DNA of 10,854 nt. Origin: Methanobacteriota archaeon. GTDB taxonomy: Archaea; Thermoplasmatota; Poseidoniia; Poseidoniales; Thalassarchaeaceae. This document shows, piece by piece, positions 1-10,854 of this stretch. A program made the translations under genes and the position numbers. Positions within the stretch are counted from its first letter, which is position 1; every line of letters starts with the position of its first letter. Below the pieces are notes generated by a model. It did not search any database. It had not been told where the DNA came from and was given only the letters and a program-made list of their open reading frames with translations. Location of the stretch: positions 16,113-26,966 of the forward strand of contig NYXO01000003.1 in NCBI GenBank assembly GCA_002685415.1. Reading direction: 5' to 3'.

Positions 1-3000
1 GAAATCCGTTACTTCGCGATAGACGATAGATTGTATCCACTTGGTGGAGCATATTATGCTGATCAAAGTTATCACCGTGGTCAAACAACAGGTATTTTCT
101 ACGCTCCAACCACTCTTTCTGGTCTTGACCCGAATCATTACATCGAATCGGTTTATGAGACCCAGCGTGGAGACAGGCCAACGGTCTTCATGAGTGCTGA
201 AAGATATGAGCAGGAGTATTTGTCAGATGTTGTCAAGCAACAATCTGGAGCAATGGAAGACACAACAGACATGATTCAACTTGTTGACATACAATATCAG
301 CAAACCGAATCTTTCTTCGAAACCATGGTGGCTAGAATCTACGTTGGATACGGCACCTCTAGTTTGGGATTGACAGTTGATCCATCTCAACCTGGACCAA
401 CATGGGCGATTAGCGGCACTCCTGGTTCGCCACTAGAGAACGCCTTCCCGCTTCCTGGTGCAATGATGAATCACTTCGTCATCGCAAATTGGTACGATGA
501 CGGTTCAGATTCACCTGATGAGGACAATAACAGCGTACCTGATATTTTCGATGGTGGATATGCCGCAATCGGTCGAGCCAATTCAAATGTTAAGGTTGTC
601 AAATACTACAGCGGTGCCACTGTAGAGGGTACGGTGGAATTAGATGGAATCGGTCCAGTTCCAAATGCTAGAATCTTAATCGAGAGAGATGCCTTCAGTG
701 GTGAAGAGGTAGCAGACGAAAATGGAACGGTGACTGACCAAGATCTTCGAACTTATTGGGTGCCCATCGGCACTGTTGATGCTGATGAGAATGGTCACTA
801 TTCATTCACAGTACCAGCCGGAAAAATAAGAGTTTCAGCCTTCTTTGGCGAACCTGACCTTAGGGCTGCTCGTGACGAATTAACCAGTGGTTCCGGAGGT
901 ATGCTGCAAGATGTAGCCACAGAAGTGACAATTGGTGAGAGAAATGTCAACCTAATCACAGGAATACTTGGAAATGTATCTGGTTCTCAGTGGTTATCCG
1001 AGACTATCATTAATGTCTCCGGAGAAGATGGCCATTCCAATGGTGAAGCTCTAATTAACGGAGATATCATTGTAGAGCCATCATTCTCTACAGGTCGGTT
1101 AGTCTGGAATGGAGAGGGAGACTTCAACGGTCAAGCAGTTACAGATGCTGTTGTTGAATTATCCCCTGCATGGGATAAAATTCAGATGGAACCAATCATG
1201 CTGGAGACCTCAACAGGAAGTGTAAACGGCCCGGATCTTGCATTCCAAGGAATAGGTCAAGTGACATTCACCGGTGAAGGAGAAGTCATTAGTAACGGTC
1301 TGATGACTGTTGATAATTTCGTAGGAACTCATACTCAAACTATTCTCAATGGGCATAGCCTTGCTGGCTCAGGTGAATTTACTGGCCGAGGTATTCTGAC
1401 CGGAGTAATCGACGGGCAGGATGTTGTCGATGGAGATTGTAACGAAAATGGAACAATGCCAGAGAATTATTCGGTTTGTAACCTATCTGATGGTGACTTC
1501 TTGATTGAGGGCGCAGTTAACGCAACAGGTCGTTTTACCTCGAACGGAACCTCCTCATTCTCACAAGAACACAATGGCTCTTCATTAACTGGTTCAGGGG
1601 TGTTCACTGTAGATGCCAGTAATGATGGATTAGAATCCTATGGTACTCTAAATGGAACAGGTACTTTCACTGGCGAGGGTGAATTCAGCGGACCTATGGT
1701 TCAAGCCGGAACCTTCCACCTAATCGATGCTATACCCGGAAATTACAACGTTGCAGTAATCTTCAATGATGGTACTAGAATCGAGATTATTGACGGATTC
1801 AACATCCCTTACCAAGGGGTGCCTTCACTGAACCAAATTGATGTAGCGGGTGGTTCCATTTCCGGAACCCTAACTGACGAAGATGGAAATACGCTGTCAG
1901 GTTCCGTTACAATGCTTCTTTCTGAATCAGAAAATAATTCAATCCTTGGAGAATGCAGCGAAGTAATGTATGCTCCATGTAGTCTAACCGCTGATGAGAA
2001 TGGGTCATTTGAGTTCGGCCCTATCATACCAGGTGAATACACCTTTGCTCTTGATATGGATGAAGACGGATTTAACGAAATTGAATTGACGCATGAATTT
2101 GATGCGGAAATGGATTCAACAGTTGATTTCCCAACACCCGTGCCTACTGTATTTGACTTGACTTTCTCCCTAAATCAAATCATTGAGGGAGTACAAACGT
2201 CAGTAGACAATCTTGACAATTTGACACTACTGAAGAGCGATAATTCAGCGCCACCAGTGGTTGCAATATTCGACAACGACAGTGGGAATTACTTGGCGGA
2301 ATTATCACAAGGTCAGTGGATTCTAAGCCATGACTTGAGTGATTCCGAGCAATTATGGGAACAGATTGACATTCAATCTGACATATCTACCTCCTTTGTG
2401 TTCAGAGAATCAATGAATGTAGTTGGGACCGTATATTATGAAACCAATGCAGAAGTCTCTGATTCTCAAATTCAAGCCGAAGTTGTTGATTTCACTCAGG
2501 TGATTTTCCATTGGGAGAATTTCACAACAACCGTATCCACTGACGCTAACGGTGTATTCAATGTCGTCCTACCAATTGGCTCCGTAGTTGATGCTGCGGT
2601 ATTTGGTAATGTATTGAATGTCGTTAATGGGACTCGCTTCACAGTCGAGGAAGGTATGGAAAATATCACAATGGTCGCACGTCCGGGATATGATGTAAGT
2701 GGAAATCTGAATCTGAATAGATTAGGAAACTATTATTCTTCGAATCTAGATGGCTGGGAACAGGTCACAGTATTTGCTACAAATGATGCTATTGATGCGG
2801 TATGGCATATTGAAGCCACTCAGTTTGGTAGCTTCAACACAATCCTTCCGGCAGGAAACTGGTCATTTACAACAGACTTAGAGTGGCTAAACGCTAGCGA
2901 ATCAACTCTACTTGTTGATGGTGAAAACGATACGTTAGAGATGTATCTTTACCCTGCAGATTCTTATCTTGAAGTGGATTTCTTCCTGGATAATTCAGGA

Positions 3001-5910
3001 GATAACAGCGTCGCCAATGGTACGCCTGTTGAATACAAATTCTCCGTGGTACCAGTAGATAACACCGAGGGAATGACAGTAAACATCGAAGCTAATGGAG
3101 ATGAATGGATTTCAGAAGGATCCGCTAGAGTGCCTCTAGAGGCCGGCTCATACAGGATTAATGTTGAACTTTCAAATGCTCGAGCCGGAGATATTTTCGG
3201 AACTAGAATTATGTCTGGAGATGCCTACTTTGAAGTCGGCTTCGGAGGAGAGGTTATCAGCAGAAGTATTGGTTTTGATCCAGAATGGAAGATAGACCTC
3301 ACCTTCACCAATGAAAGTGGCGGCCCATTGGCAGACCAGTTAGTTAGATTCATCAATCCGGAAAACACGGGAGAAGTGATTACTAGGAAGACAGATATGA
3401 ACGGTACTTTAGTTGATCACCTCGCAGATGGTGAGTGGATTGTTGTAGTCGATTCAGTAGAGACAGACACTGGAGTTGTAGAAGGTGTTCGAACAACCAT
3501 AACAGTATCAGAACAAACTGCTAACGACGCACAAACTATCTCTACGAGTGAACTTGCAACCTTTTCAATCAGAATTTCAGATTCAGAAGGAGTATATCTC
3601 CAAGGTATGGACTTGAAACTAACATCTAATGATGGACTAGGAATAGTATATCTTGATAGTACCAATGGGGCAGGAGAAACCTCAGGAATTATTTCCTCCG
3701 GTTCGTGGAATATCGAACTGAACCAAACCATGGATAGAACTCGATACATAATCGATTCAATTGAATTGTTAGATGGAGGTTTGGCTGCTGGTGAAAATGA
3801 CTTAATCGAGATTATCGCATCAACTCATTATGAGTTGTCCGGGACAATATTCTGGGATCTTGACGATGATGACGATGCTGACGTTGGAGAAGGAGTACCT
3901 GAAGTGGAAATTCAGATGTCTAGCGAAGGCCATGACAATATTACCCAAATCACAAACTCCGCTGGAGATTGGAGTGTATTTGTACCAGCAAATACAACTT
4001 GGCAGGTCTCAACATTCAGAGAAGGTTTTGATCAAGAAATCGAATCAATTGCCATGAATGCTCCTAACTCAGTAGAAATTGAGCTAACCGCAGGGTATGT
4101 GAACATCTACGGAAATGTAACTCACTCCGACTTAGTGGATATTGGTGACCAAGTAGACTTAATTTTGATTCCATCCAGTGGTATGGTTCGAGATACAGTA
4201 GTTCCCGAGAAGGTACTCGTGGATGGAGTTTGGAATGGTCAATGGACTGCTTCTGTTGAACCTGGTCGTTGGGTAATTAGAGCCACATTGGAAGCTTCCA
4301 ACCTCATAGGAATGGCTAGTATCAACGCAGACATTAGTGATGGTGGTAACGTCGATATCGACTTAGTCTACGGTGGTTGGCTATATCTATCAACTCAATG
4401 GCTGGACTTCAATGGAACTCAGCATCATGCTTCTGAATCGCAAATTGAAGGTGCAGAGATTGTGGATGAAGTAGAATTCATTCTGTCCTCAGGAGCTGGT
4501 GTCCGATGGGATGCAATGTTGTCTGAGACAGGTGAAATTTCAATCCTAATGCCTACTGGAACGATTGGTATCGAAGGAAAATTCTCCGTAGAACAGATGG
4601 ATCGAGTAATGGAATATTCAACAAGCAAGTCAATTAGCGTACCAGGTTCTGGTACAGATTTGACTGCCTCTGTGACTCAGGACATATTGTTCGATAGAAT
4701 TTCGAATCACACAATTAGTGGTACAATAGTATCGGTAACTGGTGGAGAATTAACAGATGCTGGTGAGTTCGATGATGTACAAGCTACTCTTGGCGATGAT
4801 GGCGATTACGATTCAATAGAGTTCACAATGTCTCTTGATTATCTTGGACATGAGTCTGTGTCAACTTACACAGTATCTGGAAATGTTGCAGGCACCGATG
4901 GCAAAGATTGGAGCGTAGAAGTTTGGGACGATTCAATCGATAATTGGACTACTCCTTTCACCTTTGAGTTTGGTTTGGACAGTAACAATAGTACAAGCTA
5001 CGACAATCTACGTCTGAGGATTACTCCAGCCAATCAATCTACTGCTCAGTCATTAAGCAACGGCCATACTGTAGATATCAGGTTCACTTCTGCAGATGGC
5101 TATCAGTTTGAACAAGAAGTGGTTGTGAGAATTCCACAATTCCATAATTTCGAATTAAGGGAACCACTTTTGGACATCTACGGAATTCGTCCAGGTGAGG
5201 AATTGTCAATTCCTATATTGTTCACAAATTCTGGAAATGGTGATGAGAGGTTCGAATTTGTATTCGATGATACTCAATTACCTCCTGATTGGGAAAGAAC
5301 CGGTGCTACATCGCACACATTGGGTGCGTTTGTTGACTCCACTCATACAATCAAGGTGATAGCACCAGAGAACGCTACAGGAACTGAAGATTTCATCATA
5401 ACAATGTCAGTTACTGACAAGAATAATGGGACCTATGCTCCACTTGTAATTAGGGTGAAAACTTCTCTTCCTGTTCTTGAAATTTCCAATGTTTATTCCA
5501 ATGGAGATCCGTTATTTGGAACTATCCACACATTTACAGTGGTTGTGGAAAATACTGGATTAGTAGATGCTCAGGACGTCAAGTTGGTTGGAACTGTTCG
5601 TGGTAAGAATGTAACTTCAAGCGTTACACAAGATGTATTGTCCGGAGATTCGGTAACCTACCTAATTGATGTAAATTTGACAGACTTCGATGGTCCATCA
5701 CAAGAGTGGTTTGACTTTGAGATTGTAACAGAGGGTCAAGAATTTAGCGAAGAACCTGAGATTGTCAGTAAGAGATACTCACTAAAGGCTCCTGCAGTGG
5801 ATGATTCAACTGCAACTACTGTTATCGGTGTAGTACTCGCGCTAATCTTGGTGTTTGTTGTTTGGTACTTTACAAGATCAGGGTCGAGAAGACCCGGTGC
5901 TCCATTCTGA
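1..5910 (+). CDS. AglB/STT3-like oligosaccharyltransferase C-terminal part with giant Ig-like extracellular extension (5' partial)
   Basis: The frame is open from base 1, so the gene starts upstream; the TTG at 31 is only an internal codon. Residues below count from base 1. Residues 1-210 resemble the post-membrane domain of archaeal AglB (STT3 family, which transfers lipid-linked glycans to Asn of sequons outside the membrane). They include an IRYFAIDDRLYP-like opening, GIFYAPTTLSG (~32-42), FFETMVARIYVGYG (~104-117), MNHFVIANW (156-164) and VKVVKYYSGATVEGTV (~197-212), which parallel the AglB segments before its KIFEYVKGA-type motif. Then follow a carboxypeptidase-regulatory-like domain (~207-280), a Gly-rich insert (~370-572), several Cna-B/carboxypeptidase-regulatory-like modules (~615-1270), an SdrD-B-like module (~1277-1365), further beta-sandwiches, a NEW3-like domain (~1721-1820), a CARDB-like domain (~1824-1930), one membrane helix (~1939-1957) and a basic tail. 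The catalytic WWDxG region lies outside the window, so the enzyme call is family-level inference. It could also be an inactive paralogue or a surface protein that borrowed this domain. The reading frame is certain; the function is moderately so. Confidence 0.72.
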   Translation, partial: EIRYFAIDDRLYPLGGAYYADQSYHRGQTTGIFYAPTTLSGLDPNHYIESVYETQRGDRPTVFMSAERYEQEYLSDVVKQQSGAMEDTTDMIQLVDIQYQQTESFFETMVARIYVGYGTSSLGLTVDPSQPGPTWAISGTPGSPLENAFPLPGAMMNHFVIANWYDDGSDSPDEDNNSVPDIFDGGYAAIGRANSNVKVVKYYSGATVEGTVELDGIGPVPNARILIERDAFSGEEVADENGTVTDQDLRTYWVPIGTVDADENGHYSFTVPAGKIRVSAFFGEPDLRAARDELTSGSGGMLQDVATEVTIGERNVNLITGILGNVSGSQWLSETIINVSGEDGHSNGEALINGDIIVEPSFSTGRLVWNGEGDFNGQAVTDAVVELSPAWDKIQMEPIMLETSTGSVNGPDLAFQGIGQVTFTGEGEVISNGLMTVDNFVGTHTQTILNGHSLAGSGEFTGRGILTGVIDGQDVVDGDCNENGTMPENYSVCNLSDGDFLIEGAVNATGRFTSNGTSSFSQEHNGSSLTGSGVFTVDASNDGLESYGTLNGTGTFTGEGEFSGPMVQAGTFHLIDAIPGNYNVAVIFNDGTRIEIIDGFNIPYQGVPSLNQIDVAGGSISGTLTDEDGNTLSGSVTMLLSESENNSILGECSEVMYAPCSLTADENGSFEFGPIIPGEYTFALDMDEDGFNEIELTHEFDAEMDSTVDFPTPVPTVFDLTFSLNQIIEGVQTSVDNLDNLTLLKSDNSAPPVVAIFDNDSGNYLAELSQGQWILSHDLSDSEQLWEQIDIQSDISTSFVFRESMNVVGTVYYETNAEVSDSQIQAEVVDFTQVIFHWENFTTTVSTDANGVFNVVLPIGSVVDAAVFGNVLNVVNGTRFTVEEGMENITMVARPGYDVSGNLNLNRLGNYYSSNLDGWEQVTVFATNDAIDAVWHIEATQFGSFNTILPAGNWSFTTDLEWLNASESTLLVDGENDTLEMYLYPADSYLEVDFFLDNSGDNSVANGTPVEYKFSVVPVDNTEGMTVNIEANGDEWISEGSARVPLEAGSYRINVELSNARAGDIFGTRIMSGDAYFEVGFGGEVISRSIGFDPEWKIDLTFTNESGGPLADQLVRFINPENTGEVITRKTDMNGTLVDHLADGEWIVVVDSVETDTGVVEGVRTTITVSEQTANDAQTISTSELATFSIRISDSEGVYLQGMDLKLTSNDGLGIVYLDSTNGAGETSGIISSGSWNIELNQTMDRTRYIIDSIELLDGGLAAGENDLIEIIASTHYELSGTIFWDLDDDDDADVGEGVPEVEIQMSSEGHDNITQITNSAGDWSVFVPANTTWQVSTFREGFDQEIESIAMNAPNSVEIELTAGYVNIYGNVTHSDLVDIGDQVDLILIPSSGMVRDTVVPEKVLVDGVWNGQWTASVEPGRWVIRATLEASNLIGMASINADISDGGNVDIDLVYGGWLYLSTQWLDFNGTQHHASESQIEGAEIVDEVEFILSSGAGVRWDAMLSETGEISILMPTGTIGIEGKFSVEQMDRVMEYSTSKSISVPGSGTDLTASVTQDILFDRISNHTISGTIVSVTGGELTDAGEFDDVQATLGDDGDYDSIEFTMSLDYLGHESVSTYTVSGNVAGTDGKDWSVEVWDDSIDNWTTPFTFEFGLDSNNSTSYDNLRLRITPANQSTAQSLSNGHTVDIRFTSADGYQFEQEVVVRIPQFHNFELREPLLDIYGIRPGEELSIPILFTNSGNGDERFEFVFDDTQLPPDWERTGATSHTLGAFVDSTHTIKVIAPENATGTEDFIITMSVTDKNNGTYAPLVIRVKTSLPVLEISNVYSNGDPLFGTIHTFTVVVENTGLVDAQDVKLVGTVRGKNVTSSVTQDVLSGDSVTYLIDVNLTDFDGPSQEWFDFEIVTEGQEFSEEPEIVSKRYSLKAPAVDDSTATTVIGVVLALILVFVVWYFTRSGSRRPGAPF
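496..555 (+). other. Acidic Ca-loop-like insert in the AglB-like domain
   Basis: Residues 166-185 are a short Asp/Asn-rich stretch (DDGSDSPDEDNNSVPD) placed between the MNHFVIANW and VKVVKYYSGA segments. The spacing of acidic residues resembles thrombospondin-type-3 or EF-loop calcium ligands. Calcium binding is an inference from composition only. Confidence 0.35.
1108..1716 (+). repeat. Glycine-rich short-period beta repeat region in the giant protein
   Basis: Residues ~370-572 contain a degenerate, short-period pattern of Gly-x-Gly followed by an aromatic or aliphatic residue and Thr/Asn-Gly. Visible copies are GEGDFNG, FTGEGEVISNG, GSGEFTGRGILTG, FTSNG, GSGVFTV and GTGTFTGEGEFSG. FTGEGE occurs twice, encoded near 1267 and 1669 by different synonymous codons, so this is an old protein-level repeat and not a recent DNA duplication. 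The region sits among beta-sandwich modules and is followed by an IPGNYNVAVIF segment that looks like the last strand of such a module. A beta-solenoid or bactofilin-like sheet is plausible but unproven. Confidence 0.55.
3829..4095 (+). other. SdrD-B/Cna-B-like domain with acidic metal loop
   Basis: Residues 1277-1365 begin YELSGTIFWDLDDDDDADVGEGVPEVEI. This matches the family pattern G-x-V/I-F-x-D-x-(Asp-rich)-D-x-G-E-x-G-V/I-x-x-V that opens SdrD-B type beta-sandwiches, where the Asp cluster binds calcium. It continues with a Thr-x-(Ser/Asn)-x-Gly-x-Trp turn (TNSAGDWSVFVPANTTW), the usual continuation in this fold. Calcium binding is inferred from the family. Confidence 0.6.
5161..5790 (+). 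other. Membrane-proximal NEW3-like and CARDB-like domains
   Basis: Residues ~1721-1820 run from LLDIYGIRPGEELSIPILFTNSGNGDERFEF to about VIRVKT. This is the pattern of NEW3/alpha-galactosidase-associated domains: a Pro-Gly-x-x-hydrophobic strand, a TNSGNGxxxF turn, and a LPPDW strand. Residues ~1824-1930 (LEISNVYSNGDP, VENTGLVDAQDVKLV) match CARDB-type cell-adhesion modules. Such pairs are common just outside the membrane anchor of archaeal surface proteins. No enzymatic residues are expected. Confidence 0.6.
5815..5910 (+). other. C-terminal transmembrane helix and basic tail
   Basis: An uninterrupted hydrophobic stretch (TVIGVVLALILVFVVWYF, residues ~1940-1957) is followed by TRSGSRRPGAPF. 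The Arg residues after the helix fit the positive-inside rule, so the long beta-sandwich region would lie outside the cell and the tail inside. No PGF-CTERM-like sorting motif and no Cys lipid-anchor motif is visible, so this looks like a retained membrane anchor. Confidence 0.8.
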
Positions 5911-5957: not shown

Positions 5958-7232
5958 GTGAAAACTAGACACATCGCTCTAAGTGATTGGCCTATGACTC
6001 TAGAAGATCTTGAGTTAATGCCTGAACCTGAAGATAGCAGGTTACTAACCGCTGTCGATCCCCAGGCGCCGGGGTACCCCGGCTCACACTATGGCTTGAC
6101 CGATCAAGAAGCACGAGAGCTTCGTTGGCCACTAGGTCCAATGAAGGAGTTTCTTTGGCCATGGGGTGCTGCAAGTTTCGCCATTGGAACAGTTCTGTTG
6201 TTGATGACATGGTCCTCGATTCAACCATTTTTGGTGTCTTATCTTCCCGATTCTGAGTGGGCATATGAATCCTCAGGAATTAGGGAATTACAAGACCAAG
6301 GCTACTTTGGTGATGGGATTCATGTATGCATAGTGGACACAGGAATCGATTTTTCTCATCCAGATTTCGAAAATACTAATTTGGTTGGTTTTCGTGATTT
6401 TTACTCCGGTGATCATGGAAATATTCGTGATATAGGAGATAATTATCATGGCACGTTGATGGCTGGGCTGTTGGTTGCCAATGGCACTTACGTTGGTGCA
6501 GCCCCTAACGTCTCTCTCTCAGTAGCGCTAGCCCTTGGTCCTGAGGGGGAAGCAGGTCAATCTGACAGAGTCTCTCTAGCGATTCGATGGTGTAGAATTT
6601 CTCAGGATGTTGATATCATAAGCCTAAGTTTAGGTGGTGATCCAGGAATGGGGATGAGCAATCTTCAATCTGAAACCGTTCAATCAGTCAATGAGGCATT
6701 GGATGCGGGTATATTCGTCGTTGCCGCAGCTGGAAATAATGGAAATAAAGCGAACATCAACGACGTATCAATTCCGGCAAACATTCCAGGAGTTATTGCA
6801 GTGGGAGCCTCCACAGTAGATGGTAAAATTTGGGCAAACAGCTCTGTTGGATCCAACATCGACCCTTATTCTAGTGAGGAGAGAGAATTCCCCAATCAAA
6901 AGCCAGAAGTAACCGCTCCGGGAGTTAGGATGTTCTCAACGGCATCGACTGAAATCAGCCCACCCTACGCCTATTCTACAGGGACTTCTGATTCGACCGT
7001 TATTGTCGTTGGGGCTCTTGCTCTGATTCTTCAAATTCATGGAAATCAAATGCGTGGAGATGACAATAAATTTGACTTCGAAGAAATGAACATGGTCAAG
7101 AAAGCCCTTGCCAATTCATCACTAATGAGTCGGGATGTTGATGCAATTCACTCTAACAAATCAGGATATGGTGAAATGAATGCGGCAGCATGGTTAGAAG
7201 AAATTAGGACTGAGTTTAATCTAAACTCATAA
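5958..7232 (+). CDS. Membrane-anchored subtilisin-like serine protease (peptidase family S8)
   Basis: Hydrolyses peptide bonds, probably at the outer face of the membrane. Numbering is from the GTG at 5958. The catalytic Asp127 lies in VCIVDTGIDFSHPDF, His164 in NYHGTLMAGLLVANG, the oxyanion Asn260 in AAAGNNG, and the nucleophile Ser344 in STGTSDSTVIVVGALAL. All four are present, in canonical order and spacing. Residues 65-93 hold one hydrophobic segment (FLWPWGAASFAIGTVLLLM core) after a ~60-residue acidic N-terminus, with Lys63 next to it, which suggests a cytoplasmic N-terminus and an extracellular catalytic domain. I see no recognisable I9 propeptide between the helix and the catalytic domain. 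GTSDST replaces the usual GTSMAxP, so the Pro is lost. The GTG directly follows an in-frame TAG; the ATG at 5994 (412 residues) is an equally possible start and keeps the helix. It may mature or release surface proteins such as its neighbours (inference). Confidence 0.93.
   Translation: MKTRHIALSDWPMTLEDLELMPEPEDSRLLTAVDPQAPGYPGSHYGLTDQEARELRWPLGPMKEFLWPWGAASFAIGTVLLLMTWSSIQPFLVSYLPDSEWAYESSGIRELQDQGYFGDGIHVCIVDTGIDFSHPDFENTNLVGFRDFYSGDHGNIRDIGDNYHGTLMAGLLVANGTYVGAAPNVSLSVALALGPEGEAGQSDRVSLAIRWCRISQDVDIISLSLGGDPGMGMSNLQSETVQSVNEALDAGIFVVAAAGNNGNKANINDVSIPANIPGVIAVGASTVDGKIWANSSVGSNIDPYSSEEREFPNQKPEVTAPGVRMFSTASTEISPPYAYSTGTSDSTVIVVGALALILQIHGNQMRGDDNKFDFEEMNMVKKALANSSLMSRDVDAIHSNKSGYGEMNAAAWLEEIRTEFNLNS
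6068..6083 (+). repeat. 16-bp perfect GC-rich palindrome inside the protease gene
   Basis: GCCGGGGTACCCCGGC equals its own reverse complement over all 16 bases and stands out in AT-rich surroundings. It encodes part of the QAPGYPGSH segment of the cytoplasmic N-terminus. It could be a protein-binding site or a chance product of Pro/Gly codons; nothing in the window favours a specific role. Confidence 0.6.
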
Positions 7233-7315: not shown

Positions 7316-10300
7316 ATGACCGGCACCCGAGTAAGAAGCCAGTTCCTAGTATTCTTGATGCTAACGAGCACCATGTTGGCCTTAGCTGGCCCTGCCTCGA
7401 TAGTATCCGCCAATAACGAAACTACCAGTGGGACAATTACTGGACTGGAGAGATGGAGCGGGACTCACCAACTAACCGGGGATGTTACAATTGCAGCCGG
7501 TGCCAAACTGATAATCGACCCCGGTACTGATGTTTTGTTCCCTAATGGGACTATGCTAGACGTTCGGGGTAATCTATGCGCCGGTGTTGCATCATGCGGT
7601 TCTAGTGGTAATGCGGCTTCAGGAAATCCAATTACTCTAACTTGGTCTGAGCCAGCAAATTCCAATGCAACAGGTGAATGTTACGGGTTAGGCACAGGAA
7701 GTTCACAAATATGGATCGAAGACCCCTCTTGCGGTGAAGGCGTAATTCTGCGCGATACCATGGATTTATCACAATCGGGAATGAGGAGTATGCATTTTGA
7801 TGGCGCATGGGGTGTGCCATTTTACGTTCAACTAGAGTACGAATATCGCTATGGCGCATTGATCCTCGATGGAGCAAGCCCAACTCTCAGAGATATGAGA
7901 TTTCAAGATATCAATACCACAAGTGTACTAGCAGCAAATTTAGCCCAACCAAACTTCATCGGTGGAGAATATGTTGCTGGAAATGACGACGAAAGTGGCG
8001 TAACAGGTCAAGCAGTACAAATTTATGGCGGTGGAACACCAATTTCACCTATGATTTTCCAAGATGCGACTTTCCAATCGACAAACAAAGGCTGTGGAAA
8101 TAGAGATGGCGGAAGATCTGCTATTTGGGCATCTCAGACATTTATTCGAGTTCAAAACTCCGATTTCGCTAGTGGGGATTTTGGTCTAAGCATCAGAAAT
8201 TCTGCGGGGAAAGTGACGAATTCCACAATCTCAGTGACTTGTAACGGCATTGATGTAAATAGCTTGAAGGCAATTGGAAATACCCAATATGATGTAGAAA
8301 TAGCAGATAATGTCATCACAACCACTGAACGAACTCCAATCACCGCTTACTCTGGTGCCGATGTAAGAATTCACAATAACCAACTATCAGGAGCAGGAGA
8401 GGGCTCTGGAATAGCCGTATATTCATCTAAAGCTGAAATACACAACAATGACATCGGGCCTATTGGCGGTTGGAATGGTCTTTGGCTATTGGGAAGTTTT
8501 GATGTAAGAGCAGAAAATAATACAATTTCGGACACCGCAAGGGAACCGATACTAGCAGGAGAATATGGTAATCAAGCACCATCACCCACACCTGCGAGAT
8601 TATACCTAGCCAACAATACAATATCCACCCAAGGAAGTGGGGAATGTTCCTCACAGAAGTGGTGGGGCGGTTCTTTCACTTGTCCTGCGATTATGGCACA
8701 CAGATCGGGGGCGACAATTGTTGACAATGAAATAAATGCAGGTGGAAGTGCAGATGGAATTAGGGCAACAGGAGCCTTGCTAGATGTTCGTAGGAATATC
8801 TTCAACGTTCAAGGAGCCGGGGCTATATTGCAACATTATGACAGTGGCTTTGCAGATTCTCAACAATATGGAACTCTAGCATTCTTTAGCAACAATGAAT
8901 GGAATGGAGTAAGCGTAACTTACAACGTATCAAAGTCTTCAGTAACTGTTCAATCCGAGTACATACCAAGTCCTCCACCTGATGAACATCCAGTTCTACT
9001 CAGTTGGGCAGATCAAGAAGCATGGGTACAAAATGGCTGGCAGAATGGAATCATACCACATGAGGTTAGAGCTTGTGATACCTGTGAAGATTTCACCCCT
9101 TACAATTTCCCATTGGCCATAAATATGGATAACAACTCTACCGTTTTCACCTTCTCAAATGTTTCAAATTTAGATTTATCAAAGGTGAAAATCGAAACCC
9201 AACCCACAAAATATGCAGTTCAGGTACAGAGGGCTGAACTGGTTAGATTCCAAACTCTTGTCAATGGACAACGCGTTGAAAATGCGAATGTACTGATAGA
9301 AGATGCACTAGGAAATGATCTATACAGCCTCGAGACTGGCTCTGATGGCTACACCCCATGGTTCTCTCTTGCTTCTAATTTCCATCTTGATTTCAGAGGT
9401 TTAGCAGGAGGCGACAATCCAGATGGTTTTGCAGATGATGAATTCGAAGACTCTTGTTCAGATGGAGAGGACAATGATGGTGATTTGCTACTTGATACAG
9501 ATGATCCAGATTGTGATTATTCAGCAGGAACAAGGGAATTATCCCTCTACAGATACACAGCCTACAAATTTGGTTATGGATTAGATACAGGAGAGTTTAC
9601 CCTTTCTGATACAACCTATCAAGACACTCTATTCCTTCATAATGAACCCCCGAGTATATCGGTAATACAAAATGACGGTGAATCCTTCAGAAGAGTGGTC
9701 AATTTGACGGGTTCCGCTTATGACGGAACGTGGGCTGGAATTTACGAAACTGACGAATTAGCTCAATGGGATCAGAAAGGTTTTGTTCACGCTGTAGAAA
9801 TAAAAGATCCATTCACCAGCGATTGGAACGCGGCTGGATATGCTATCGATTCATCCGGAGCCGAACCCGGTTATGTGTCTAGAAACAATCACCCATTCAG
9901 TAGTTGGTATTACGAATATGATATGTCAGGTAGGCAAGAAGGCGACTATACGTTTGAATTCAGAGCCTTTGATGGCCTCGAGTACTCTCCGATTGTGACT
10001 CGCACAATCAAGGTCAATACCGAAGCTCCGACTGTTTCGGTAACTTCCCCTAGCACACAATCTACTCATGCTGATGGAACTGTAACTTTCGAAGGAACCG
10101 CACATGACCCATATGGTTGTCCGATTGATTGCGGGACAGATATAGACCAGATATATTTCCAAATAGATGGTCCAAATTACAACGTAGTTACTTCCACAGA
10201 AGGTGGGACGGATTGGTCATGGACCTGGGATTTCAGTGGGCTACCTCGTGATTTAGCAACATACACATTCACCGTTTGGGCATCAGATTCCGATTTCTGT

Positions 10301-10854
10301 AAAGGTGATATAGATGAGTGTGAAGGCGTAGTAATTGACTTGCAAATTGACAACCAAAACTCAAGACCATTTGTTAGCCTAACCTCTCCACAGAGCGGAC
10401 AGATATATGCTGTGGATGAAAAATCAATCATCAGTGGAGTCGCAAGAGATAATGATGGAGATGTAACTCGCGTTGATGTTGAAGTGTTTGATGTGTCAAA
10501 TGGGTTCCTCAACGTCTTCACAGGTGCTGTCACGGAGTTCGAATCCAATGGTTATTGGGAACTAGAATGGGATTCAAGAATTTTGACTCATAACATGCAA
10601 TATCTAATCAAAGCAAGATCCTATGATGGGTATGAATACAGCGATTGGATGGAAGCACAGGTAATCGCAGATAATCCACCCGATGCGGATAATAACAGAC
10701 CAACCTTTGATGCAACAAATTGGCAAACAGAGATTACGCTTTATTGCGAATTTGATACCACTTCACAAAACCCCTGTACAACAGCAGAAATTAATTTGTT
10801 AGAGTTCTTTGACGATGTAGATGGCGTGAATTCACTCATTCTGTCTGTCTATGA
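7316..10854 (+). CDS. Secreted parallel beta-helix protein with Ca-loop and Ig-like repeats (3' partial)
   Basis: The frame is open from the ATG at 7316 to the window end: 1179 codons with no stop, the last two bases being an incomplete codon. An in-frame TAA at 7289 with no start codon between fixes this start. Residues 1-32 form a signal peptide (MTGTRVRSQ, then a hydrophobic core FLVFLMLTSTMLALAG, ending SIVSA before NNETT). Residues ~40-80 have a TGDVTIAAGAKLIIDPGTDV opening typical of beta-helix N-caps. Residues ~180-545 carry a ladder of ~22-residue parallel beta-helix (PbH1) coils. Residues ~643-700 look like a carboxypeptidase-regulatory-like module (VNGQRVENANVLIEDALGN). C714-C733 flank an Asp-rich calcium-type loop. 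From ~778 on there are at least three Ig-like repeats. The fold suits carbohydrate or cell-surface binding, as in adhesins and some polysaccharide-active enzymes; no catalytic triad is evident, so no enzymatic role is claimed. The C-terminal anchor, if any, is outside the window. Confidence 0.88.
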   Translation, partial: MTGTRVRSQFLVFLMLTSTMLALAGPASIVSANNETTSGTITGLERWSGTHQLTGDVTIAAGAKLIIDPGTDVLFPNGTMLDVRGNLCAGVASCGSSGNAASGNPITLTWSEPANSNATGECYGLGTGSSQIWIEDPSCGEGVILRDTMDLSQSGMRSMHFDGAWGVPFYVQLEYEYRYGALILDGASPTLRDMRFQDINTTSVLAANLAQPNFIGGEYVAGNDDESGVTGQAVQIYGGGTPISPMIFQDATFQSTNKGCGNRDGGRSAIWASQTFIRVQNSDFASGDFGLSIRNSAGKVTNSTISVTCNGIDVNSLKAIGNTQYDVEIADNVITTTERTPITAYSGADVRIHNNQLSGAGEGSGIAVYSSKAEIHNNDIGPIGGWNGLWLLGSFDVRAENNTISDTAREPILAGEYGNQAPSPTPARLYLANNTISTQGSGECSSQKWWGGSFTCPAIMAHRSGATIVDNEINAGGSADGIRATGALLDVRRNIFNVQGAGAILQHYDSGFADSQQYGTLAFFSNNEWNGVSVTYNVSKSSVTVQSEYIPSPPPDEHPVLLSWADQEAWVQNGWQNGIIPHEVRACDTCEDFTPYNFPLAINMDNNSTVFTFSNVSNLDLSKVKIETQPTKYAVQVQRAELVRFQTLVNGQRVENANVLIEDALGNDLYSLETGSDGYTPWFSLASNFHLDFRGLAGGDNPDGFADDEFEDSCSDGEDNDGDLLLDTDDPDCDYSAGTRELSLYRYTAYKFGYGLDTGEFTLSDTTYQDTLFLHNEPPSISVIQNDGESFRRVVNLTGSAYDGTWAGIYETDELAQWDQKGFVHAVEIKDPFTSDWNAAGYAIDSSGAEPGYVSRNNHPFSSWYYEYDMSGRQEGDYTFEFRAFDGLEYSPIVTRTIKVNTEAPTVSVTSPSTQSTHADGTVTFEGTAHDPYGCPIDCGTDIDQIYFQIDGPNYNVVTSTEGGTDWSWTWDFSGLPRDLATYTFTVWASDSDFCKGDIDECEGVVIDLQIDNQNSRPFVSLTSPQSGQIYAVDEKSIISGVARDNDGDVTRVDVEVFDVSNGFLNVFTGAVTEFESNGYWELEWDSRILTHNMQYLIKARSYDGYEYSDWMEAQVIADNPPDADNNRPTFDATNWQTEITLYCEFDTTSQNPCTTAEINLLEFFDDVDGVNSLILSVY
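8342..8935 (+). repeat. Parallel beta-helix (PbH1) coil repeats
   Basis: Residues ~343-540 show successive coils with an Asn ladder followed by a hydrophobic residue: VRIHNNQLSG, AEIHNNDIGP, VRAENNTISD, LYLANNTIST, ATIVDNEINA, LDVRRNIFNV and LAFFSNNEWNG. Several coils are separated by about 22-30 residues and carry G-I/L-x-V/A strands between them (SGIAVYSS, NGLWLLGS, DGIRATGA). Asn-stacking ladders of this type are characteristic of right-handed parallel beta-helices such as NosD/pectate-lyase-like folds. Confidence 0.8.
9455..9514 (+). other. Cys-flanked Asp-rich calcium-loop motif
   Basis: Residues 714-733 read C-SDGEDNDGDLLLDTDDPD-C. This is the C-x-D-G-x-D-N-D-x-D-x-x-x-D-x-x-D-x-x-C pattern seen in secreted bacterial and archaeal proteins and related to thrombospondin-type-3 calcium loops. 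The two Cys could form a disulfide closing the loop. It joins the beta-helix half to the Ig-like half of the protein. Confidence 0.75.
9647..10671 (+). repeat. Three tandem Ig-like domains
   Basis: Three modules of roughly 100-125 residues start with Pro-x-hydrophobic-Ser-V (PPSISV at 9647, APTVSVTSP at 10025, RPFVSLTSP at 10364). Each contains a G-x-A-x-D turn (LTGSAYDG, FEGTAHDP, ISGVARDN), and copies 1 and 3 end with a matching strand and DG-x-E-Y-S motif (FRAFDGLEYSP, ARSYDGYEYSDW). Copy 2 has a diverged equivalent (FTVWASDSDFCKG). This is the layout of bacterial Ig-like repeats in extracellular proteins. A fourth may start near 10690 (RPTFDATNW). Confidence 0.7.

Follow-up and report, generated by a model that had tools for sequence, protein, structure and literature searches.

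The DNA considered here, referred to as the window, is a stretch of 10,854 nucleotides from contig C48 (positions 16113-26966) of genome G000, a 1.62-Mb draft in 85 contigs that is 67.55% complete and contains ambiguous bases. Its source is an archaeon of Marine Group II (MGII) that resembles Thalassarchaeum and probably belongs to the order Poseidoniales. Related loci in named genomes number 19 and are 34-89% identical, with the two from Candidatus Thalassarchaeum MGIIb-O1 at 81% and 87%. Positions 1-5910 of the forward strand form a single open frame of 1,969 codons whose 5' end is open. The frame extends upstream of the window, with no intervening stop, to an ATG at C48:12486 and encodes a protein of 3,178 amino acids. 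The window covers the last 1,969 of these, residues 1210-3178, and adding 1209 to a window residue number gives the protein number. Residues 1-1209, encoded upstream of the window at C48:12486-16112, comprise most of what is almost certainly an oligosaccharyltransferase (OST) of the AglB/STT3 type, including the STT3 region and the DXD, TIXE and WWDYG motifs. The frame continues into the window with the last part of the OST C-terminal domain (residues 1210-1409, positions 1-600, forward strand), which is followed by a long stalk and a terminal membrane helix. The initial annotation had described an AglB-like domain running unbroken into a chain of beta-sandwich modules and an end helix; this arrangement is real, and the peptides quoted in its support lie in the frame.

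Neighbouring genes were compared by tblastn (E 1e-5) at 40 MGII and 38 non-MGII loci. The purD gene lies upstream on the same strand at 39 of the 40 MGII loci, and the remaining locus, L087, begins inside the gene. Immediately downstream of the OST gene, positions 5958-7232 of the forward strand encode a subtilase of 424 residues (Peptidase_S8, 129 bits against a cut-off of 21.8) that occupies the same place at 36 of the 40 MGII loci; the available sequence of L081, L082 and L085 does not extend downstream. The window ends within a third gene (positions 7316-10854, forward strand) that encodes a surface protein with Beta_helix and Big_7 matches. This protein has 1,409 residues in full, extends to C48:27654, begins with a signal-peptide-like sequence, and is found in the same place at 34 of the 40 MGII loci, with sequence too short at five. 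L099 lacks both downstream genes, and neither is found beside the OST gene at any of the 38 non-MGII loci.

Given the draft state of the genome, with its low completeness, many contigs and ambiguous bases, one might suspect that so large a frame is an artefact of assembly or a chimera. That suspicion is refuted by full-length copies from independent assemblies as well as from a single-cell genome, which leave it with practically no probability. The single-cell genome AG-404-A19 (locus L069) has a frame of identical length, 3,178 residues, and the frame is complete at 36 of the 41 MGII loci read, with lengths of 3,124-3,275 residues. Four of the other loci (L081, L082, L085 and L087) run off the contig and one (L072) is interrupted. 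Several frames of the window genome contain unreadable codons (X), one of which is the codon for the catalytic E725 of the OST.

The oligosaccharyltransferase core and its membrane segments

Assignment of the protein to the OSTs follows from its family matches and motifs. Residues 385-632 match PF02516 (STT3) with 55 bits against a cut-off of 24.5. Residues 362-986 match TIGR04154, the archaeo_STT3 subfamily associated with the archaeosortase A system, with 138.1 bits, below the curated cut-off of 450; the protein, though almost certainly an OST, lies outside this subfamily. The first DXD motif is placed by alignment at D398 and the second at D514/D516, and the TIXE motif at T722/E725, the E725 codon being ambiguous and read as X in the window assembly. 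WWDYG occupies residues 952-956 and is present at all 79 loci read. The columns of these motifs, whose roles are taken from parts of PMC8342417, are conserved in 53 of 53 representatives, the only exception being the X at E725 in the window genome. An in-frame STT3 membrane domain and a WWDxG motif upstream of the window had been proposed as the check on the OST reading, and both were found there, the motif as WWDYG.

The closest solved structure by sequence is that of Archaeoglobus fulgidus AglB, and the protein shares its STT3 core and motifs with AglB-Long of that species (PDB 3WAJ, 5GMY, 7E9S). As described in part of PMC3703281, A. fulgidus AglB-L has 868 residues, divided between a membrane region of 499 and a C-terminal domain of 369. 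Compared with this enzyme, the MGII OST has, by hydropathy, roughly 7-10 additional membrane helices in front of the core, as well as about 1,770 additional residues and a terminal helix behind it. Other characterised AglBs are, to our knowledge, shorter than about 1,100 residues.

STT3/AglB/PglB enzymes have 13 membrane helices in the core. In the present protein a crude hydropathy scan identified 22 segments ahead of WWDYG, 11 of which precede the first DXD motif. Foldseek returned no match at E <=0.001 for the N-terminal membrane module, for which the underlying model is poor. Extra helices, about eight, also precede the OST core in L115 and L116 (families f20 and f13). The predicted model of the OST part as a whole is poor (mean pLDDT 50) and confirms neither the fold nor an arch. 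One portion that is well predicted (pLDDT about 80) is a mixed alpha/beta insert located after WWDYG, within the C-terminal domain of the MGII enzymes (L069 residues 988-1195).

Only two hydropathy segments follow WWDYG. The first (residues 2060-2078) lies within the stalk, and we take it to be a hydrophobic strand rather than a helix. The second (residues 3149-3167, positions 5818-5874, forward strand) is the C-terminal membrane helix, and a segment near the C-terminus is present in all 36 complete MGII copies. The helix is followed by a short basic tail (residues 3168-3178, positions 5875-5907, forward strand) that is probably cytoplasmic and looks as though it binds something intracellular. 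Tethering of the protein to the membrane at both ends, as initially proposed, would fit this helix and basic tail. The tail of the window protein ends in RRPGAPF, an ending restricted to its closer relatives; other MGII tails are basic and often end in F.

The stalk

The OST domain meets the stalk at KYYSGA (residues 1410-1415, positions 601-618, forward strand), such that the first 213 window residues (protein 1210-1422) cover the last stretch of the OST C-terminal domain and the first of the stalk. In 21 relatives cut at this point the junction usually reads KYYxGA; variants include QYY, KFY and KWY. The tyrosine is aligned in 52 of 53 rows and is replaced by F in L135. The KYYxGA junction is common to relatives across the phylum.

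The stalk itself (residues 1416-3145, positions 619-5808, forward strand) is a sequon-rich chain of beta-sandwich modules with a length of 1,704-1,765 residues in 25 MGII copies. The modules had been termed Ig-like in the initial annotation. The beta-sandwich chain is borne out, but the modules are better described as transthyretin-like (TTR-like), or carboxypeptidase-regulatory. CarboxypepD_reg (PF13620) matches at residues 1828-1893 (positions 1855-2052, forward strand); the score is 40 bits over the whole protein against a cut-off of 32.3, with no single stretch passing alone. The family is matched in 15 of 15 MGII copies and in 21 of 21 other relatives. A predicted model of L069 residues 1405-2600 is all-beta (mean pLDDT 66), and its structural matches are TTR-like. 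Within the proximal stalk the modules are interrupted by a glycine-rich all-beta stretch with GxGxF-like steps (window positions 1051-1743, residues 1560-1790), which is modelled with low confidence and has many sequons common to the family.

The 25 MGII stalks contain 1,077 N-X-S/T sequons compared with 475 of the reversed form [S/T]-X-N, and forward sequons outnumber reversed ones in each of the 25, although these rows are related by descent and are not independent tests of the excess. The non-stalk remainder of the same proteins shows no excess (159 forward, 202 reversed). In seven stalks 23-50 sequons were observed where shuffling predicts 12-21. Since the excess is confined to the stalk, the stalk itself is probably glycosylated, and the excess may be the trace expected of selection for a glycosylated arm. 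L115 and L116 have about 100 sequons after WWDYG, roughly double the MGII number.

Constraint was measured on 15 MGII rows, taking the nine that diverge most and comparing them with the reference. By this measure identity is 0.26 in the N-terminal module, 0.55 in the STT3 membrane domain, 0.46 in the OST C-terminal domain, 0.41 in the proximal stalk, and 0.28 and 0.24 in the distal stalk. The length of the arm is kept, but its sequence loosens away from the enzyme.

Beads-on-a-string beta-sandwiches are also found in the carboxypeptidase-regulatory and CnaB-type shafts of adhesins and pilins and in an S-layer entry (8qox chain B). Adhesins and pilus shafts rank highest in Foldseek searches with the stalk, and the same repeats are present in many other proteins of these genomes, so the stalk could be an adhesin-like surface arm that is joined to the OST in a single polypeptide but plays no part in glycosylation. 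The known shafts are not fused to an OST, and none is known to be anchored in the membrane at either end of the chain as well as the other. In the proteins described here the fusion persists in an order and in several families, the junction is conserved, and the proximal stalk is conserved like the enzyme, all of which argue against an adhesin-like arm and make it very unlikely.

Distribution in MGII and across the phylum

An STT3 match is present in 184 of 193 genomes of the order, one per genome, and in 32 of the 34 with completeness of 90% or more and contamination of 5% or less. Among the matches listed, many of the order's STT3 frames are about 3,200 residues long and some are shorter, several of these being at contig ends. 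The 36 complete MGII copies have a length of 3,183 +/- 32 residues, and the tail after WWDYG accounts for 2,226 +/- 23 of these. A widespread marine archaeal order keeps one OST of about 3,180 residues in which the length of the arm, though not its sequence, is nearly constant.

Long forms also occur outside MGII. A different order within the class has them at seven loci (2,317-2,363 residues), several families of the phylum have forms of 2,080-2,740 residues, and an STT3 match is found in 285 of the 340 genomes of the phylum sample. Thirty-eight non-MGII loci, including the seven of the other order, were read; they were hand-picked, mostly for long frames, and the tail after WWDYG is about 1,500-1,920 residues in 30 of them. 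A terminal helix is present in 29 of these 30, the exception, L115, being cut by the contig end. At the other eight loci the tail is 599-838 residues and has no terminal helix; whole clades have such short tails (500-840 residues). The existence of short-tailed clades indicates that an OST can function without a long tethered arm.

A quick, unrooted tree of the OST core was built from 53 rows with no outgroup, leaving out L069-L087, L089, L093, L097, L101, L108, L112 and L144. It recovers the class (SH-aLRT 97). Of the seven short-tailed rows, six group in a single clade (support 100) that adjoins the long-tailed families f13 and f20 (support 87). The seventh short-tailed row (f4) is a long branch of unsure placement. 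This topology suggests, for a tree that is unrooted, that the short tails arose by secondary shortening.

Collinear homology between the MGII stalks and those of other groups was considered and rejected. An hhalign comparison of A4 with A5 covered 902 columns with Prob 99.8 and E 3.8e-28, and a control (A7) gave Prob 12.9, but a non-OST repeat array (A10) aligned with A5 over 664 columns with Prob 99.4 and E 5.2e-21. Because repeat arrays confound the test of collinearity, the shared junction is the firmer evidence.

Role of the arm and resemblance to NOMO

In the mechanism that we propose, the STT3 core would transfer a lipid-linked glycan to Asn-X-Ser/Thr sites of proteins at the external surface of the membrane. 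The beta-sandwich chain would fold outside the cell, be glycosylated by its own OST, and be tied back to the membrane, forming an arm or arch next to the active site. Such an arm would most likely retain or steer freshly exported surface proteins close to the catalytic site, while leaving space for them beneath the cell coat. This reading, of an OST elongated at both ends whose arm is an acceptor-holding or acceptor-guiding device within the same polypeptide as the enzyme, is given about an even chance of being correct; it counts against acceptor holding that ordinary shafts of adhesins and pili are also built from TTR-like arrays. The conserved neighbours would suit it, as the beta-helix/Big_7 surface protein is a plausible candidate acceptor and the subtilase a plausible candidate processing enzyme.

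Alternatively, the stalk could be a spacer or anchor of the surface coat, with the OST as its membrane base and the glycosylated beads building or spacing the coat. A stalk reaching into the coat would not be expected to have a membrane helix at its outer end that pins it back, no MGII surface-layer protein was identified here, and the likeness to known shafts is that of a common fold. A coat spacer is therefore considered rather unlikely. Whether the arm handles acceptors or spaces the coat, MGII would provide a case, open to testing, in which an OST is equipped with its own device for doing so.

A further possibility concerns NOMO, a component of the BOS complex of the multipass translocon in the endoplasmic reticulum. 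NOMO is a lumenal protein in its own right; it has one terminal membrane helix and lacks an STT3 part. Like the stalk, NOMO (PDB 9c7v chain B) is a chain of transthyretin-like domains, and it is the best PDB match of the stalk profiles. In a profile of nine stalks from non-MGII families, NOMO2 was the top solved structure with E 2e-24, the next having 7.5e-6; it matched a two-sequence stalk profile with E 3.5e-4, and it was the sole match under 0.01 of the MGII stalk profile (E 0.0016). The NOMO_5th family is found in 12 of 21 OST relatives from outside MGII, and in 32 genomes all three PF23194 matches, each under the curated cut-off, are in OST frames. These results could mean that the OST is permanently fused to a relative of NOMO and acts at the translocon.

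Several observations oppose such a fusion. The NOMO match consists of six pieces that are not collinear, and the order of domains in NOMO differs from that in the OST stalk. NOMO_5th is found in none of 15 MGII copies, and four of five PF22902 matches in the 32 genomes, all under the curated cut-off, lie outside OST frames. Single-sequence searches of solved structures did not find NOMO. It is also absent from the best 50 of 109 Foldseek rows (E <=0.001) and from 50 VIA rows, which does not exclude it. Repeat arrays confound the comparison: a control array of similar repeats from three sequences had NOMO2 as its fourth match (E 0.05), in a shallower profile that makes the comparison less than strict, and a two-sequence non-OST control array, again of differing profile depth, did not match NOMO at E 0.1. 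In 20 control proteins the NOMO families are not among the 25 listed of the 73 families matched, which puts them in at most two of the 20. CarboxypepD_reg matches are numerous in the 32 genomes and, among the matches listed, many are outside the OST. Following these controls, we describe the stalk as apparently resembling NOMO and withhold a claim of homology; a fused NOMO relative acting at the translocon is decidedly improbable. Doubtful to the same degree is the idea that the OST and NOMO-like arm of MGII and other Thermoplasmatota represent, in one polypeptide, an ancestor or an analogue of how OST and the NOMO-bearing BOS complex are arranged at the translocon in eukaryotes. Were it true, it would reveal the origin of NOMO, whose first work would have been protein handling for N-glycosylation, and the stalk may in any event offer a prokaryotic reference point for NOMO. 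A likeness to EMC7 was rejected as not specific, being found in three of 21 OST relatives and seven of 20 controls.

For an OST, the architecture described here is unusual. Among the papers listed in the open-access literature, to which the search was confined, none was seen to describe an AglB of this size from MGII or Thermoplasmatota, or any OST bearing a comparable stalk, and the portions consulted of PMC5898192, PMC7883539 and PMC4973528 do not mention one. The protein points to N-glycosylation in the uncultivated MGII. Part of PMC9723583 includes 'oligosaccharyltransferase', under lipid metabolism, among the genes commoner in metatranscriptomes in which genus O1 of MGIIb is active, and this O1 gene may be the one described here.
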